Assembly (NCBI RefSeq): GCF_003367195.1
Contig: NZ_QRGO01000002.1
Coordinates: forward strand, 558,001-622,000
From: Undibacter mobilis
Lineage (GTDB): Bacteria; Pseudomonadota; Alphaproteobacteria; Rhizobiales; Xanthobacteraceae
Direction: 5' to 3'
DNA: 64,000 bases
Shown here: piece after piece, positions 25,862 through 30,997 of the stretch
How positions within the stretch are numbered: the first letter of the stretch is position 1
How the letters are laid out: every line of letters starts with the position of its first letter
The notes under the pieces: generated by a model
Databases searched by the model: none
What the model was told of the DNA's origin: nothing
Seen by the model: only the letters and a program-made list of their open reading frames with translations
Position numbers and translations under genes: made by a program

Positions 25862-27001
25862 TTAGCCGGCCTTGCGTGTCCACGGCAGCAAACCGCCGAT
25901 CAGCGCGTCGGCCAGCGACGTCGATGGCTCTCGGCCGGCGCGAGCGCGATCATGGACCAGCCCGTGGATGAAGCCGAGTTTGCGGATCACCCCCGGCGAC
26001 AGCACGAAGGGATAAAGATCGCGTGCGCCCATCGAGCGGTTGACGTTGTTCATGGCGAACACATAAGGCAACCAGGCGTCGACGATCTGCTCGATGCTGT
26101 CCGCACGATAGGGGTCGAACGTGACCCTGGCCGCAAACTCGCCGGTGTTGTCCACCTTCGGCTTCACCGACATGCCCGAGGCCACGACCATCTCCAGCGT
26201 ATCGACGATGTGGATGTAGTGCGCCCAGGTTTCGGCGAAATCCTCCCAAGGATGCGCGCTGGCGTATTGCGACACGAAATTGTCTTGCCAATCGGTCGGC
26301 GTGCCATCCTTGTAGTACCGCTGCAGCGCTGCGCCGTAATCCTCGCTATCGTCGCCGAACATGGCGCGGCAAGCGTCGAGCTTGCCGCCGTCGCGCACCA
26401 GGACATCCCAATAGTAGTGGCCGATCTCGTGCCGGAAATGGCCGAGCAGCGTCCGGTACGGCTCGCCCATCGCAACACGGCGTCTTTCGCGCTCGGCGTC
26501 GTTGGCCTCGGCGAGCGCAATGGTGATCTTGCCGCTGTCATGGCCGGTCATGACCTTGGGGCCGCCAATCTGGGGGGCGTCCGCCAGGAATTCAAACGAC
26601 AGGCCCCGCACCGGGTCGTCGATGATCGTGGTCAGCGGCAGGTTGAGGCGGATCAGCGAATAAAACAGCCGGTGTTTGGCCATTTCCAGCGCCTGCCAGG
26701 CCGGCAGGTTGGCCGGCACCGACAGATCGGGGATGGTCTGATTATGCCGACAGGCCAGGCAATAGGCGTCGGTCGTTTCGTCCGGGACGAACCAGTTGCA
26801 AACGCCGTGCTCCGCATTGGCACACAAAAGCCGGCGCTGTTCCGGCGCATTGAGCGGCTTCCACCAGTTATCGCCAAGCGGTTCGATCGCGGTCATTTCG
26901 GTCTGCGCCGGCCGATAGGCAAGCCTATGACCACAGACTTCGCAGGAGACGTTGTCGAAATAAACAATGTTGCCGCAGGACTGGCACTTGAACAGTTTCA
27001 T
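25862..27001 (-). CDS. Zinc-ribbon plus putative zinc metallopeptidase (Peptidase_Mx-like)
   Basis: A 379-residue cytosolic protein. The N-terminus is a zinc ribbon with Cys6, Cys9, Cys20 and Cys23, followed by a second cysteine set at 60, 68, 81 and 84. The main domain carries HEIGH at 191-195 (GHFRHEIGHYYWDVLV), a gluzincin-type HExxH, and a later EDFAETWAHYIHI segment that may supply the third ligand. The layout matches the DUF2248 / putative zinc-binding metallopeptidase family found in proteobacteria. The substrate is unknown. It converges on the EF-hand-like gene, 16 bases apart. Confidence 0.88.
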   Translation of the reverse strand: MKLFKCQSCGNIVYFDNVSCEVCGHRLAYRPAQTEMTAIEPLGDNWWKPLNAPEQRRLLCANAEHGVCNWFVPDETTDAYCLACRHNQTIPDLSVPANLPAWQALEMAKHRLFYSLIRLNLPLTTIIDDPVRGLSFEFLADAPQIGGPKVMTGHDSGKITIALAEANDAERERRRVAMGEPYRTLLGHFRHEIGHYYWDVLVRDGGKLDACRAMFGDDSEDYGAALQRYYKDGTPTDWQDNFVSQYASAHPWEDFAETWAHYIHIVDTLEMVVASGMSVKPKVDNTGEFAARVTFDPYRADSIEQIVDAWLPYVFAMNNVNRSMGARDLYPFVLSPGVIRKLGFIHGLVHDRARAGREPSTSLADALIGGLLPWTRKAG

Positions 27002-27098
27002 AACATTTCAAAATGTGCGGGCAGAGCCGGGTTGAGCGAACCCACAGCAACGCCAAGGCTTCTGCCGGGTTCCGGCCAACCGGCAACCGACCGCTTTT

Positions 27099-28076
27099 TT
27101 ACTCAGCGGCCTGCAACTGCTTCGGCAACCGGTTCTGCGCAGCGACCAGCCGCTGCATCAGCCTGAGGTCTCGATCGCTGAGCTTGAGGGCGCAATCGGC
27201 CCAAATTCTCACAATGTCGTCGAGTTCGTCGAGCGGCATCGGATTGACACGCCGGCCAACATCATAAACGGCGCGGATGCCGGCATGGCGGCTCTGGCTG
27301 CGCAGCATGTACTCCTTCGCCGCATCGATCCCCTGCCCGGGCTCAACCACAATATGAACCAGCCCCGCCTGTTTCATCTCGTCGGCCGTATAGGTGCGGC
27401 CGCTCAGCATCATCTCTTCGGCGAATGCGGCATTGGTCCGCCGTGACACAATGCTGTAGGCGCCCATGCCGGGAAACAGACCGAACAAGGTTTCGGGGAA
27501 TCCGAACTTCGCGTTCCGCTCGGCTATGACGACATTGAACGACAGCAGCGATTCCAGACCCCCACCGAGAGCGTCGCCCTGCGCCAGACCGATGGTGATG
27601 ATCGGCAGGTCGAGCGCGCTATGAAACCGGTGCAGCACCCGCACGCAGGATTTGCCGTAGTCGATCAAGGCCTGTCGATCCTTGTTACGGATGCAGGTCG
27701 CAAACAGGTCGAGATCACCACCGAGGCTGAAGACGCCGGGCGAACGCGAGCCTGCCACCAGATACCGCAGCTCGGTCGGTTGGCCACCGAACCGTGCGAC
27801 GATGCCGTCCTGCATGGCGTGAATGTCATCAAGCAAAGCCAAGCTGTAGCTCGGACGCCCTTTCGAGCGCATGAAGCTCCACAACGCGCCACTTTTGTCG
27901 TCGAACGAGACTTCGAGGTGTTCGAGGCAGAACAGCCGGGCGGCGTCAGCGGCTCTTTGCAGTTCGAGCGATCGAGCCTCGATGCGGGACACACTGTCCG
28001 CCTGCAGCGCGGGCGGCAGCGCGAACGGTAAAAAGCGGCCCTTCGCAACGGAGTCGCGCGACGCAATACTCGTCAT
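27099..28076 (-). CDS. RpfF-like diffusible signal factor (DSF) synthase, crotonase superfamily
   Basis: A 325-residue crotonase-fold protein that matches the Xanthomonas DSF synthase RpfF as I know it: SLGGDLDLF (117-125), GDALGGGLESLLSF with Glu165, and FGFPETLFGLFPGMGAYS with Glu185. The two glutamates are 20 residues apart, as are the catalytic pair Glu141/Glu161 of RpfF, which dehydrates 3-hydroxyacyl-ACP and releases a cis-2-unsaturated fatty acid signal. The N-terminal extension before the crotonase core is also RpfF-like. It may alternatively be an ordinary enoyl-CoA hydratase. No rpfC/rpfG pair is nearby, but a membrane GGDEF-EAL gene is divergently placed. Confidence 0.8.
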   Translation of the reverse strand: MTSIASRDSVAKGRFLPFALPPALQADSVSRIEARSLELQRAADAARLFCLEHLEVSFDDKSGALWSFMRSKGRPSYSLALLDDIHAMQDGIVARFGGQPTELRYLVAGSRSPGVFSLGGDLDLFATCIRNKDRQALIDYGKSCVRVLHRFHSALDLPIITIGLAQGDALGGGLESLLSFNVVIAERNAKFGFPETLFGLFPGMGAYSIVSRRTNAAFAEEMMLSGRTYTADEMKQAGLVHIVVEPGQGIDAAKEYMLRSQSRHAGIRAVYDVGRRVNPMPLDELDDIVRIWADCALKLSDRDLRLMQRLVAAQNRLPKQLQAAE

Positions 28077-28669
28077 TTGACCACCACGCTCACAACGCAA
28101 CAGACACTGACGGGCGGCCCGAACTCAGCCCGTTAAAGATTATTTTACCTTAACACTTTCTTAAGATTGCGCCAGAGCCTTCATGCATCCTGTCGGAGGC
28201 AACGCGGCGGCGCCGGCGTTACGGGCGGCCGAACCCTCGAAAATACCGGAAGATATTGTGCATTAACCACGACGATGAAATGGCGTTCGTGGCCCTTCAG
28301 ACCCCCGACCGCAACGGCTGCAGCGAAACCGCAAAATTGCCGCGAAAATGTCCGATCGCCTTACCCATTCGCGGCGAGGATTGCGGCTGTGCCCGATTAC
28401 CAATTCGACCCTTGTGGGTTCCAAAGGCGGGCAGAACACGCCTTAGCAACCCGACGTGACAAAGCGGATGCTGTAAAAAACGATGACTGGACAGCGTTAA
28501 ACGCAGTTCCAGGCCATCCACCGGTCGCCGAATCGGAATAAATTGAGCATGATTTGAGCTGGCTCAGTTGACGTTTCTTAAGCACGTCCAACGGCAGTTG
28601 AATACGTTTGCTCGGTGTTGATTTTCAGCAGCTAACCTTTCCACATCCGAGGAAGCCGCGCCCAGCACC
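28077..28669. other. 593-bp divergent intergenic region between rpfF-like and GGDEF-EAL genes
   Basis: The region must hold promoters for both divergent genes. An AT-rich block at about 28135-28166 is a plausible promoter area for the rpfF-like gene. The short open frames here lack ribosome-binding sites and family resemblance. Its length is unusual for this compact window, leaving room for regulator sites or a small RNA, but I see no hairpin or repeat to support either. Confidence 0.5.
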
Positions 28670-30997
28670 ATGCTCTTCAAGCAGTTGATGCAAATTCGCC
28701 GCGCCGATGCCGAGCTGCCGAACGAAGTTCGCGCGGCATTGGTCGAGTCTTTGTTTGCACCGATTGCTTCACTCGCTATCGGTGCGATCAATTGCTCGAT
28801 CATCGGCATGCTGGTCGCGTGGAACCTGAACAACCAGCAAATCATGCTGACCTCGGCCGCTATTCTGGCCGTAGGCGCGTTGAGGGTGGTGTCGGCGCTG
28901 TACTATCGGCGATCCAAGAAACTGGCCGTCCGTCATGTCAGATTCTGGGAAGCCGCCTATGAATACGGCGCTTGGGGCTTTTCCGCCCTGCTCGGCCTGC
29001 TGTGCTGGCTGACCCTGACGCAAACCGATAATTCCGCGCTGCAGATGGCAGTGGTTACGACCGCAACCGGTTACGCCGCGGCCATCGCCGGCCGCAACGC
29101 CGGCCGGCCCTTTATCGCCGGTGGCCAATTCACGCTGGTAATGCTGCCGATCGTGGTTGGGCTGCTGATCTATCCCGACTGGACCCACAAGGTCCTCGGC
29201 TTTGTCGGCCTGCTGTTTATCTACGGCATGATGGACATCACGCTCGGCATCCGCGACGTCATCTTTCAGGCACTGATCATGACCCGCAAGGAAGCGGCGC
29301 TCGCCGCCCGCTTCGAGGAGCAGGCCAACCGCTTCGACGCCGCACTCAACAACATGTCGCACGGCCTGTGTATGCTCGACGCGCGGGATCGCCTTCAGGT
29401 CTGGAACGAGCGCTTCCTCGAGCTCCTGCATCTGCAGAACGCGTCCGTTCGGGTCGGTATGCGCATTTCCCAGATCGTTCGGCACAGCCTGCGCGCCCGC
29501 AATCATAATTCCGACAGCGTCAAGCTGGTGGTCCACGACCTGGTCAACGGCCTGCGCCAGGACAACTTCGACCAGTTCCAGGTGTCGCTCGATGGTTCAC
29601 GCACCCTCGCCATCTCCCGTCGCATGATGCCGGACGGCGGCTCGGTCGTGATTTTCGAAGACGTGACCGAGCGCAACAATGCGCAGGAGAAAATCGCGCG
29701 GCTCGCGCGCTTCGACGAACTGACAGGATTGGCCAATCGCACCCAGTTCCGCGAGCGCATCGGCGACATGCTGGCTGCGGTGAAGGATCGCGCCAATCAC
29801 CTCGCCATCCATCTTATCGATCTCGACCGCTTCAAGACCGTCAATGATACGCTCGGTCACCCGATCGGCGACCTGCTGCTCAAGGAAGTCGCGGCGCGTC
29901 TGACCGCCCTTGTCCGACCCGGCGATATGATCACGCGGTTCGGCGGCGATGAATTCGTCATTCTTCAGACCAACACGCCGCGCCAGCGCGCCGCACACGC
30001 GCTCGCCTCACGCATCGCCAAGGCCTTGAAAGAGCCGTTCCACATCGCCGGCCATCGCATCGATGTCGGCGCCTCGATCGGTATTGCCATGGCGCCGCAC
30101 GATGGCGTCGATGCCGACGAACTGATCAAGAAGGCCGACATGGCGCTCTATGCAGCCAAGAGCAATGGCGGCGGCAACCATCGGTTCTTTGCCATCGAGA
30201 TGGAAGACGCCGCGCAGGAGCGGCGCTCACTCGAACTCGACTTGCGCGAAGCCATCGCGCTCGATCAATTCCAGCTGCACTATCAGCCGCTCGTCGATCT
30301 GCACACCGGCCGCGTCACGACCTGCGAAGCGCTGTTGCGTTGGACTCATCCGGTGCGCGGCAACATTCCGCCGGCGGTGTTCATACCCGTGGCGGAAGAA
30401 ACGGGACTGATCATCGCGCTGGGCGAATGGGCGCTGAACCGCGCCTGCGCCGACGCATCGAGCTGGCCACGCGAAGTCCGCGTCGCGGTGAACCTGTCAC
30501 CGGTGCAATTCCGCGACGAGGGCCTCGGCCTCCAGGTGGTCGCGGCGCTGGCAAAGTCCGGGCTGTCGGCCCAGCGTCTGGAACTGGAAGTAACCGAACG
30601 GCTGCTGCTGGAAGACAACGACAACACGCTCGATACCATGCATCAGTTACACGCTCTCGGCGTCAGCCTGTCGCTGGACGATTTCGGCACCGGTTATTCG
30701 TCGCTGAATTACCTGCGCAAATTCCCGTTCCAGAAGATCAAGATCGACCGCTCATTCATCACCGATCTCGGCGACGGCCGCGACGCGCGCGCGATCATCG
30801 GCGCGGTGGCAAGCTTGGGGGCCGGCCTCGACAAGACCGTGGTTGCCGAAGGCATCGAGACCGAAGAGCAGATGAATCTGGTACGCTCGCAGGGCTGCCA
30901 TGAAGGCCAGGGCTATCTGTTCGGCAAGCCGATGCCGGCGGACGACATCCGGTCCCGGCTGGACAAGCCGATCATCGCCATCCGCCGGGTCGCCTGA
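28670..30997 (+). CDS. Membrane-bound PAS-GGDEF-EAL cyclic-di-GMP enzyme
   Basis: A 775-residue signalling protein. Six membrane helices occupy about residues 28-194, a PAS domain about 215-330, a GGDEF domain about 340-505 and an EAL domain about 520-765. The cyclase motif is intact (RFGGDEF, 423-429), with an inhibitory RxxD site (RPGD, 416-419) five residues before it. The phosphodiesterase motif is also intact (EALLRW, 553-558), as are NLSPVQF, DDFGTGYSSL and VAEGIETEEQ. Both activities may therefore be possible and could switch with the sensed signal. The membrane region could sense a lipid-like molecule such as the product of the divergent RpfF-like enzyme; that link is inference. Confidence 0.93.
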   Translation: MLFKQLMQIRRADAELPNEVRAALVESLFAPIASLAIGAINCSIIGMLVAWNLNNQQIMLTSAAILAVGALRVVSALYYRRSKKLAVRHVRFWEAAYEYGAWGFSALLGLLCWLTLTQTDNSALQMAVVTTATGYAAAIAGRNAGRPFIAGGQFTLVMLPIVVGLLIYPDWTHKVLGFVGLLFIYGMMDITLGIRDVIFQALIMTRKEAALAARFEEQANRFDAALNNMSHGLCMLDARDRLQVWNERFLELLHLQNASVRVGMRISQIVRHSLRARNHNSDSVKLVVHDLVNGLRQDNFDQFQVSLDGSRTLAISRRMMPDGGSVVIFEDVTERNNAQEKIARLARFDELTGLANRTQFRERIGDMLAAVKDRANHLAIHLIDLDRFKTVNDTLGHPIGDLLLKEVAARLTALVRPGDMITRFGGDEFVILQTNTPRQRAAHALASRIAKALKEPFHIAGHRIDVGASIGIAMAPHDGVDADELIKKADMALYAAKSNGGGNHRFFAIEMEDAAQERRSLELDLREAIALDQFQLHYQPLVDLHTGRVTTCEALLRWTHPVRGNIPPAVFIPVAEETGLIIALGEWALNRACADASSWPREVRVAVNLSPVQFRDEGLGLQVVAALAKSGLSAQRLELEVTERLLLEDNDNTLDTMHQLHALGVSLSLDDFGTGYSSLNYLRKFPFQKIKIDRSFITDLGDGRDARAIIGAVASLGAGLDKTVVAEGIETEEQMNLVRSQGCHEGQGYLFGKPMPADDIRSRLDKPIIAIRRVA

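Follow-up and report, generated by a model that had tools for sequence, protein, structure and literature searches.

Gene content of the locus

In a 64,000-nucleotide stretch of Undibacter mobilis DNA (the window; contig NZ_QRGO01000002.1 of assembly GCF_003367195.1, positions 558,001 to 622,000), two divergent open reading frames (ORFs) were analyzed, which were found at the positions given in an earlier note on this DNA. One of them codes for a crotonase of the RpfF family, a putative synthase of the diffusible signal factor (DSF) type. The other codes for a membrane PAS-GGDEF-EAL protein, a putative receptor and enzyme of cyclic di-GMP (c-di-GMP) turnover, which was regarded as the partner of the crotonase on the basis of co-occurrence and adjacency.

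The crotonase gene occupies positions 27099..28076 of the minus strand and encodes 325 residues. Its ATG start at 28076 was preferred over a TTG at 28100, because orthologues of equal length can be aligned with it from the first residue on. In ATG numbering, the RpfF blocks recognized previously are located at residues 117 (SLGGDLDLF), 171 (GGGLES) and 193 (FPETLFGLFPGMGAYS). The two glutamates described there are indeed 20 residues apart; however, they are E175 and E195 and not residues 165 and 185.

The partner gene (28670..30997, plus strand) encodes 775 residues. Residues 1-222 (28670..29335) form a domain with six transmembrane (TM) helices that belongs to no Pfam family and is conserved in RpfF-linked proteins. 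The six membrane-length helices, which had been read from the sequence, are backed by a confident model with a predicted local distance difference test score (pLDDT) of 94.3. Between the predicted helices 4 and 5 lies a conserved RNAxRP motif (residues 142-147, 29093..29110). Pfam assigned a PAS_7 domain to residues 226-340 (29345..29689), a GGDEF domain to residues 347-501 (29708..30172) and an EAL domain to residues 524-754 (30239..30931). The GGDEF motif is found at 29942-29956, preceded by an inhibition-site (I-site) motif RPGD at 29915-29926. The EAL motif is found at 30326-30334, and the other signature motifs of the domain are present. The PAS-GGDEF-EAL architecture with intact signature motifs was thus confirmed. 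The two genes are separated by a divergent intergenic region of 593 bp (28077..28669).

The crotonase is a member of the RpfF family

With the NCBIfam model NF006452 (PRK08788) the crotonase scored 356.8 bits at a cut-off of 177, whereas Pfam assigned only the broad hydratase families ECH_1 and ECH_2. The solved structures nearest in sequence are 7zq7, 3m6m (RpfF), 5fus and 6dgn (RpfF), and a wide sequence gap separates the RpfF-type chains of the PDB from mitochondrial and bacterial hydratases. An AlphaFold model of the crotonase (pLDDT 88.3) was used for a fold search. The top 12 of the 50 listed matches are RpfF-type chains with root-mean-square deviations (rmsd) of 1.5-1.8 Å, and hydratases rank below them with an rmsd of 2.9 Å or worse; DspI from P. 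aeruginosa is found at rank 37. In a tree of 80 rows, 77 RpfF-family rows (including three PDB references) were split with a support of 96 from three hydratases encoded in the window's own genome, which served as an outgroup with long branches in this quick reconstruction. Tree and fold matches therefore agree in placing the crotonase apart from the hydratases with which it was compared, a comparison that the earlier note had suggested.

In Xanthomonas RpfF, thioesterase activity is attributed to G86 and G138, and catalysis to E141 and E161 (PMC9040811). The corresponding residues of the crotonase are G120 (codon at 27717..27719), G172 (27561..27563), E175 (27552..27554) and E195 (27492..27494), where RpfF numbers are chain numbers less 16, an offset deduced from the glutamates. 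All four residues are invariant in alignments of 24 and 37 rows. The glutamate pair was rejected as proof of an RpfF, because an ordinary hydratase chain has it at the aligned positions as well. M204, W292 and L310, which we take to correspond to residues of the RpfF pocket, are likewise invariant. Judged by sequence and model, the 325-residue protein is a member of the RpfF family and a putative DSF-type synthase. Many homologues already carry the name 'DSF synthase' in the JGI annotation, and the enzyme half of the system was therefore foreseen there.

Conservation of the pair within the genus

The enzyme (E ≤ 1e-20) and the TM region of the partner (E ≤ 1e-10) were searched for in 60 related genomes, and each was found in 24 of them. 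Among the 36 genomes of the genus, including that of the window, the same 22 contain both genes and the same 14 contain neither. A Fisher test of this co-occurrence, which treats the genomes as unrelated and leaves kinship uncorrected, yielded 2.6e-10. The completeness of the 14 genomes lacking the pair is below 90% in five cases, 90-94% in four and 95-100% in five. Outside the genus, one genome (G048) contains both genes, one (G045) only the enzyme, and one (G054) only a remote TM match with 28% identity.

The genes are adjacent and divergent in all 22 carriers of the genus, as deduced from loci that include the partner gene only in its initial part; in G018 the partner gene is broken over two frames. 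Together with the occurrence in other families described below, this answers the question raised earlier of whether the two genes are neighbors in a single genome only: they are not. The genome of the window codes for 11 EAL proteins, which gives a chance of about 2.7% that any one gene has one of them at a distance of 5 kb or less.

Distribution and partner types in other genomes

For a census of the order, 397 genomes were sampled, and 53 of them contain an RpfF-family gene at a threshold of E ≤ 1e-40. At this threshold, the 18 genomes that represent other genera within the family all lacked the gene. The 52 neighborhoods beyond the window were analyzed in a six-frame scan with profiles of the TM domain and of an RpfC-like sensor, and with single-sequence queries for GGDEF, EAL, PAS, histidine kinase (HK) and receiver (REC) domains. 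In 15 of the 53 loci, the window included, a TM-PAS-GGDEF-EAL protein adjoins the enzyme (in L099 the PAS query stayed below threshold). In 29 loci, an RpfC-like hybrid kinase is accompanied by a REC-GGDEF-EAL protein, the EAL frame being broken in one of these (L085). Two loci (L102, L103) combine an RpfC-like kinase with a REC-HK protein, and two are cut by contig ends, such that the GGDEF-EAL gene is truncated (L071) or the TM gene lies on another contig (L072). Taken together, a GGDEF-EAL gene is close to the enzyme in 44 of the 53 loci, and in one more such a gene is truncated by the end of the contig. Pfam confirmed PAS_7-GGDEF-EAL behind the TM region in five of five representatives of the first type, and for one kinase-type locus it yielded REC-PAS_4-GGDEF-EAL together with HisKA-HATPase-REC-Hpt.

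A scan of named genomes yielded 524 confirmed relatives (593 stretches), of which the best 80 were kept; this sample therefore leans towards close relatives, and some of its genomes are shared with the order and genus sets. Among these best 80 of 524, 10 loci contain a TM-PAS-GGDEF-EAL protein, 32 a TM-GGDEF-EAL protein without PAS, 12 an RpfC-like kinase with REC-GGDEF-EAL, and six a kinase with other partners. The form lacking PAS occurs in Sphingomonas, Sphingobium, Parasphingopyxis, one Altericroceibacterium and some Novosphingobium. The adjacency, whose conservation across the Hyphomicrobiales had been suggested as a check, was thus also observed in other families. The pair is not limited to this order and also occurs in Sphingomonadales.

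The 55 loci with a TM partner, not counting the window, differ in gene orientation: 42 are convergent, 10 divergent, two tandem with the enzyme first and one tandem with the partner first, some of these loci representing the same genome two times. The two genes have remained neighbors while their orientation changed, which argues for selection on the pair. Furthermore, a comparison of 56 pairs showed that the distances between enzymes are correlated with those between partners (rho 0.87, Mantel p 0.001, uncorrected for kinship). The pair is real and widely conserved, and a mechanistic connection of its products is plausible on the basis of sequence.

Some loci deserve separate mention. Eight loci from Novosphingobium, Erythrobacteraceae and related bacteria (L165, L174, L182, L188, L191, L193, L196, L197) contain RpfF and no GGDEF-EAL gene within 6 kb; their common upstream gene resembles an exosortase, as judged by eye from one translation. 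For five loci in which no partner of RpfF is seen at distances of up to about 6 kb (L084, L218, L221, L225, L226), secondary loss or an unlinked receptor is possible; L218 is from Methylopila and groups with L084 in the RpfF tree. In L099 and L100, a second crotonase-like ORF of 233-234 residues follows beyond the TM-GGDEF-EAL gene, and that of L100 matches Pfam ECH_1 just below the cut-off. Finally, a metagenome-assembled genome labelled Terriglobia (Acidobacteriota; L195) contains an RpfF-family gene 48% identical to that of the window, which may be due to transfer or contamination.

The six-TM domain of the partner

For three of four TM-domain sequences, including that of the window, Pfam gave no match at E ≤ 10; both matches to the fourth were weak (E 0.072 and 0.11). 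A Foldseek search with the domain yielded no structure match at E ≤ 0.001. No homology was detected to the RpfC-like sensors of the order, as distinct from Xanthomonas RpfC itself (hhalign probability 0.4%, E 0.16). Within the RNAxRP motif, R142, A144 and R146 are invariant in 43 rows, and the full pattern is found in 42 of the 56 partners.

The three Sphingomonadales partners checked by Pfam contain only GGDEF and EAL. In agreement with this, the TM profile stops where GGDEF starts in six of nine inspected proteins, all from Sphingomonadales. As PAS is missing from these partners, the six-TM domain is the common input and therefore the likelier sensor.

With the TM-domain profile (E ≤ 1e-8), matches were found in 115 of the 397 order genomes. 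The 26 RpfF-linked TM domains lie on one side of a branch and 14 unlinked ones on the other (support 93/86). Linked matches scored at least 230 bits and all others at most 172, a gap that is partly built in, because the profile was made from linked rows. The assumption that the TM domain or the TM-PAS-GGDEF-EAL architecture is exclusive to RpfF loci was rejected in view of the unlinked matches, and a linked subgroup remains. For the proteins that carry the same TM domain without RpfF in their flanks (L126-L139), the ligand may be another lipid.

The RxxD site, which the earlier note had mentioned, is present as RPGD five residues ahead of the GGDEF motif. As a component of the system it was rejected, since it is found in only 13 of the 56 partners.

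RpfC, RpfG and the kinase-based designs

A search of the window's genome for the HD-GYP family PF13487 yielded no hit. An RpfC-like query detected 12 kinases in this genome, none of which was matched before query residue 115, so that most of the sensor was uncovered. For three of these 12 kinases the RpfC-like sensor profile was compared, and it matched only with its last 28-54 positions. As far as these searches reach, the previous statement that an rpfC/rpfG pair is lacking holds.

Relatives from the same order follow other designs. RpfF accompanied by an RpfC-like 5TM-HK-REC-Hpt kinase and a REC-PAS-GGDEF-EAL protein was observed in L076-L082, L085-L088, L090-L098, L220, L224 and L228-L234. 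By sequence, a REC-PAS-GGDEF-EAL protein in the place of RpfG is a second alphaproteobacterial design, which is represented by 29 of the 53 order loci (domains assigned by Pfam in one). A third design may be seen in L102, L103, L203 and L207, where RpfF has an RpfC-like kinase and a free-standing REC-HK protein as neighbors, with no GGDEF-EAL gene within 6 kb.

Comparison with known DSF systems

A review from 2015 names two core pathways of DSF perception, RpfC/RpfG and RpfR (PMC4504480), and a review from 2022 describes RpfR as a DSF receptor of c-di-GMP networks and the system as widespread in Beta- and Gammaproteobacteria (PMC8846402). In these sources, DSF is connected to c-di-GMP via RpfC/RpfG or the soluble RpfR mainly in gamma- and betaproteobacteria, RpfC/RpfG being also known from Leptospirillum (PMC4504480, PMC8846402, PMC9040811). 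Among the open-licence literature matches listed, no title or abstract opening describes an RpfF from Alphaproteobacteria whose partner is a membrane GGDEF-EAL protein. The main text of a study on c-di-GMP genes in alphaproteobacterial orders (PMC9756655) does not contain the terms Rpf, DSF, crotonase, quorum or enoyl.

The closest known systems are RpfF/RpfR, the Rpf system of Xanthomonas and, as a candidate for a common fold of the six-TM domain, ImcA of Pseudomonas aeruginosa (8wcn). In Burkholderia cenocepacia and Cronobacter turicensis, an RpfF-family synthase likewise neighbors a GGDEF-EAL protein, and a one-component system likewise links a fatty-acid signal to c-di-GMP, as would be the case here. 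There, rpfF and rpfR are neighboring convergent genes (PMC6361424). The partner in the window has the PAS-GGDEF-EAL order of RpfR. RpfR, however, is a soluble protein (PMC4504480), whose N-terminal FI domain binds RpfF and whose PAS domain binds the Burkholderia diffusible signal factor (BDSF), and the signal raises the breakdown of c-di-GMP by RpfR (PMC6361424). The PAS domain of RpfR is of the PAS9 type (PMC8846402), whereas that of the window's partner is PAS_7. Since the predicted six-TM domain of residues 1-222 stands where RpfR has its FI domain, the partner is not an RpfR. Moreover, RpfF/RpfR belongs to another class of bacteria, and in the system described here PAS is absent from Sphingomonadales partners.

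The Xanthomonas system RpfF/RpfC/RpfG likewise combines the same synthase family with a membrane sensor and an output in c-di-GMP turnover. RpfC resides in the membrane and binds DSF with its short N-terminal sensor (PMC5391125). The differences lie in RpfC, which is a hybrid kinase, and in RpfG, a response regulator of the HD-GYP type; the searches of the window's genome yielded neither a PF13487 match nor an RpfC-type sensor. The same-order relatives with an RpfC-like kinase have REC-PAS-GGDEF-EAL where Xanthomonas has RpfG.

A probable compact circuit from fatty-acid signal to c-di-GMP

On the basis of sequence comparisons and models, the two genes probably constitute a compact one-component quorum-sensing circuit of the DSF type, with a membrane c-di-GMP enzyme as the receptor. 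The reading proposed in the earlier note, namely an alphaproteobacterial circuit that leads from a fatty-acid signal to c-di-GMP via a membrane sensor, gains support from the tree, the fold and the kept adjacency. According to this model, the fatty acid would enter the membrane of the producing cell and of neighboring cells, where the six-TM domain of the partner, the product of the divergent gene, would sense it. Sensing would shift the balance between synthesis by GGDEF and breakdown by EAL; by analogy with RpfR, breakdown would most likely be favored, and c-di-GMP would drop at high cell density. As the GGDEF and EAL motifs are kept in most of the 56 partners, a bifunctional switch of either sign is possible.

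Several observations weigh against such a circuit. With the NCBIfam equivalog NF053515 (RpfF), the crotonase scored 219.3 bits, below the curated cut-off of 550, and NCBI would therefore not name it RpfF. Four further members from the order passed the cut-off of PRK08788 and failed that of NF053515 (173-222 bits). The tree places the three RpfF references within the kinase-linked rows, away from the crotonase of the window. Five of the 53 order loci (L084, L101, L221, L225, L226) have no partner within about 6 kb, although L101 has a GGDEF-EAL gene just beyond this distance. Among the best 80 of 524 named loci, 20 have neither a GGDEF-EAL protein nor an RpfC-like kinase within about 6 kb, five of these having less than 4 kb on one side. 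The neighbors of the partnerless loci suggested no receptor. Kinship may have contributed to the outcome of both the Fisher and the Mantel test. The motif GG[DE]EF is kept in 54 of the 56 partners and missing in two, and the strict EAL pattern is kept in 44 and missing in 12. Other strict EAL-domain patterns occur in 38 to 54 of the 56, with K-x-D missing in 18. Finally, 99 of the 115 genomes with a TM match hold only matches outside the 16 RpfF-linked ones, and the 14 best unlinked matches (L126-L139) are all TM-PAS-GGDEF-EAL proteins with no RpfF in their 1.5-kb flanks.

With respect to the site of perception, we tentatively propose that the undescribed six-TM domain of the RNAxRP type might bind the product of RpfF within the membrane and drive the fused GGDEF-EAL module directly. 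If so, this would be a distinct alphaproteobacterial class of one-component DSF quorum sensing; as this synthase is accompanied in relatives by an RpfC-like kinase and REC-GGDEF-EAL, several receptor designs would serve one synthase, two of which end in c-di-GMP. It is unlikely that, within the same circuit, the cytoplasmic PAS_7 domain is the site of fatty-acid binding and the six-TM part an anchor only. Such a role would resemble that of the PAS domain of RpfR, which binds BDSF (PMC6361424), and PAS_7 was identified by Pfam in the partner of the window and in five other TM partners of the order. However, the RpfF-linked partners of Sphingomonas and Parasphingopyxis lack PAS (three of three by Pfam), and the part common to linked partners is the TM domain.

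A different explanation, which we consider improbable, is that an RpfF-like dehydratase/thioesterase tunes membrane fatty acids, that the partner senses the state of the membrane or another cue, and that the two are linked by common regulation. In its favor, RpfF acts on acyl-ACP (acyl carrier protein) substrates (PMC6361424), the DSF-type product of the crotonase is a prediction, and the partner architecture is also found without RpfF nearby. It is difficult to reconcile this explanation with the differing partner types that adjoin the same enzyme family, RpfC-like kinases among them, and with the GGDEF-EAL genes close to the enzyme in most of the order loci (44 of 53, L085 with its broken EAL frame included, plus the one cut by a contig end). 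That the crotonase is an ordinary hydratase of beta-oxidation or a side pathway, placed next to the partner by chance, is most improbable, as fold, tree, key residues and conserved linkage speak against it in spite of the ECH_1/ECH_2 labels and a glutamate pair common to hydratases.

If the proposed circuit exists, DSF signalling to c-di-GMP is predicted for sizeable groups of Alphaproteobacteria, namely Pseudolabrys, Chelatococcus, Sphingomonas, Sphingobium and Parasphingopyxis, and its kinase-based form for Pseudovibrio, Stappia and Gluconacetobacter. With regard to receptor design, a ligand dissolved in the membrane would be read by a membrane domain that is wired straight to a c-di-GMP enzyme. 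An input domain without a Pfam match thereby gains a candidate ligand, and its function can be tested directly.

The intergenic region

No known RNA was found between 26900 and 31100 (no Rfam match at E ≤ 1). A sigma-70 scan of 26950-28750 yielded no promoter-like site, and the same interval contains two terminator-like sites, compared to 2.5 expected. The intergenic region contains, at 28150..28164, the palindrome TTAA-N7-TTAA, which we take to be the CtrA-box consensus. Exact sites of this type occur three times in the window, compared to an expected 0.04; genome-wide, there are 29 distinct sites versus 20 for a reversed control pattern. Nine of 21 intergenic regions examined from the genus contain the element, with 11 sites in 10.4 kb, whereas the background is 0.025 per kb over all loci analyzed, much of which is coding. 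The element is a lead for regulation and a candidate operator.

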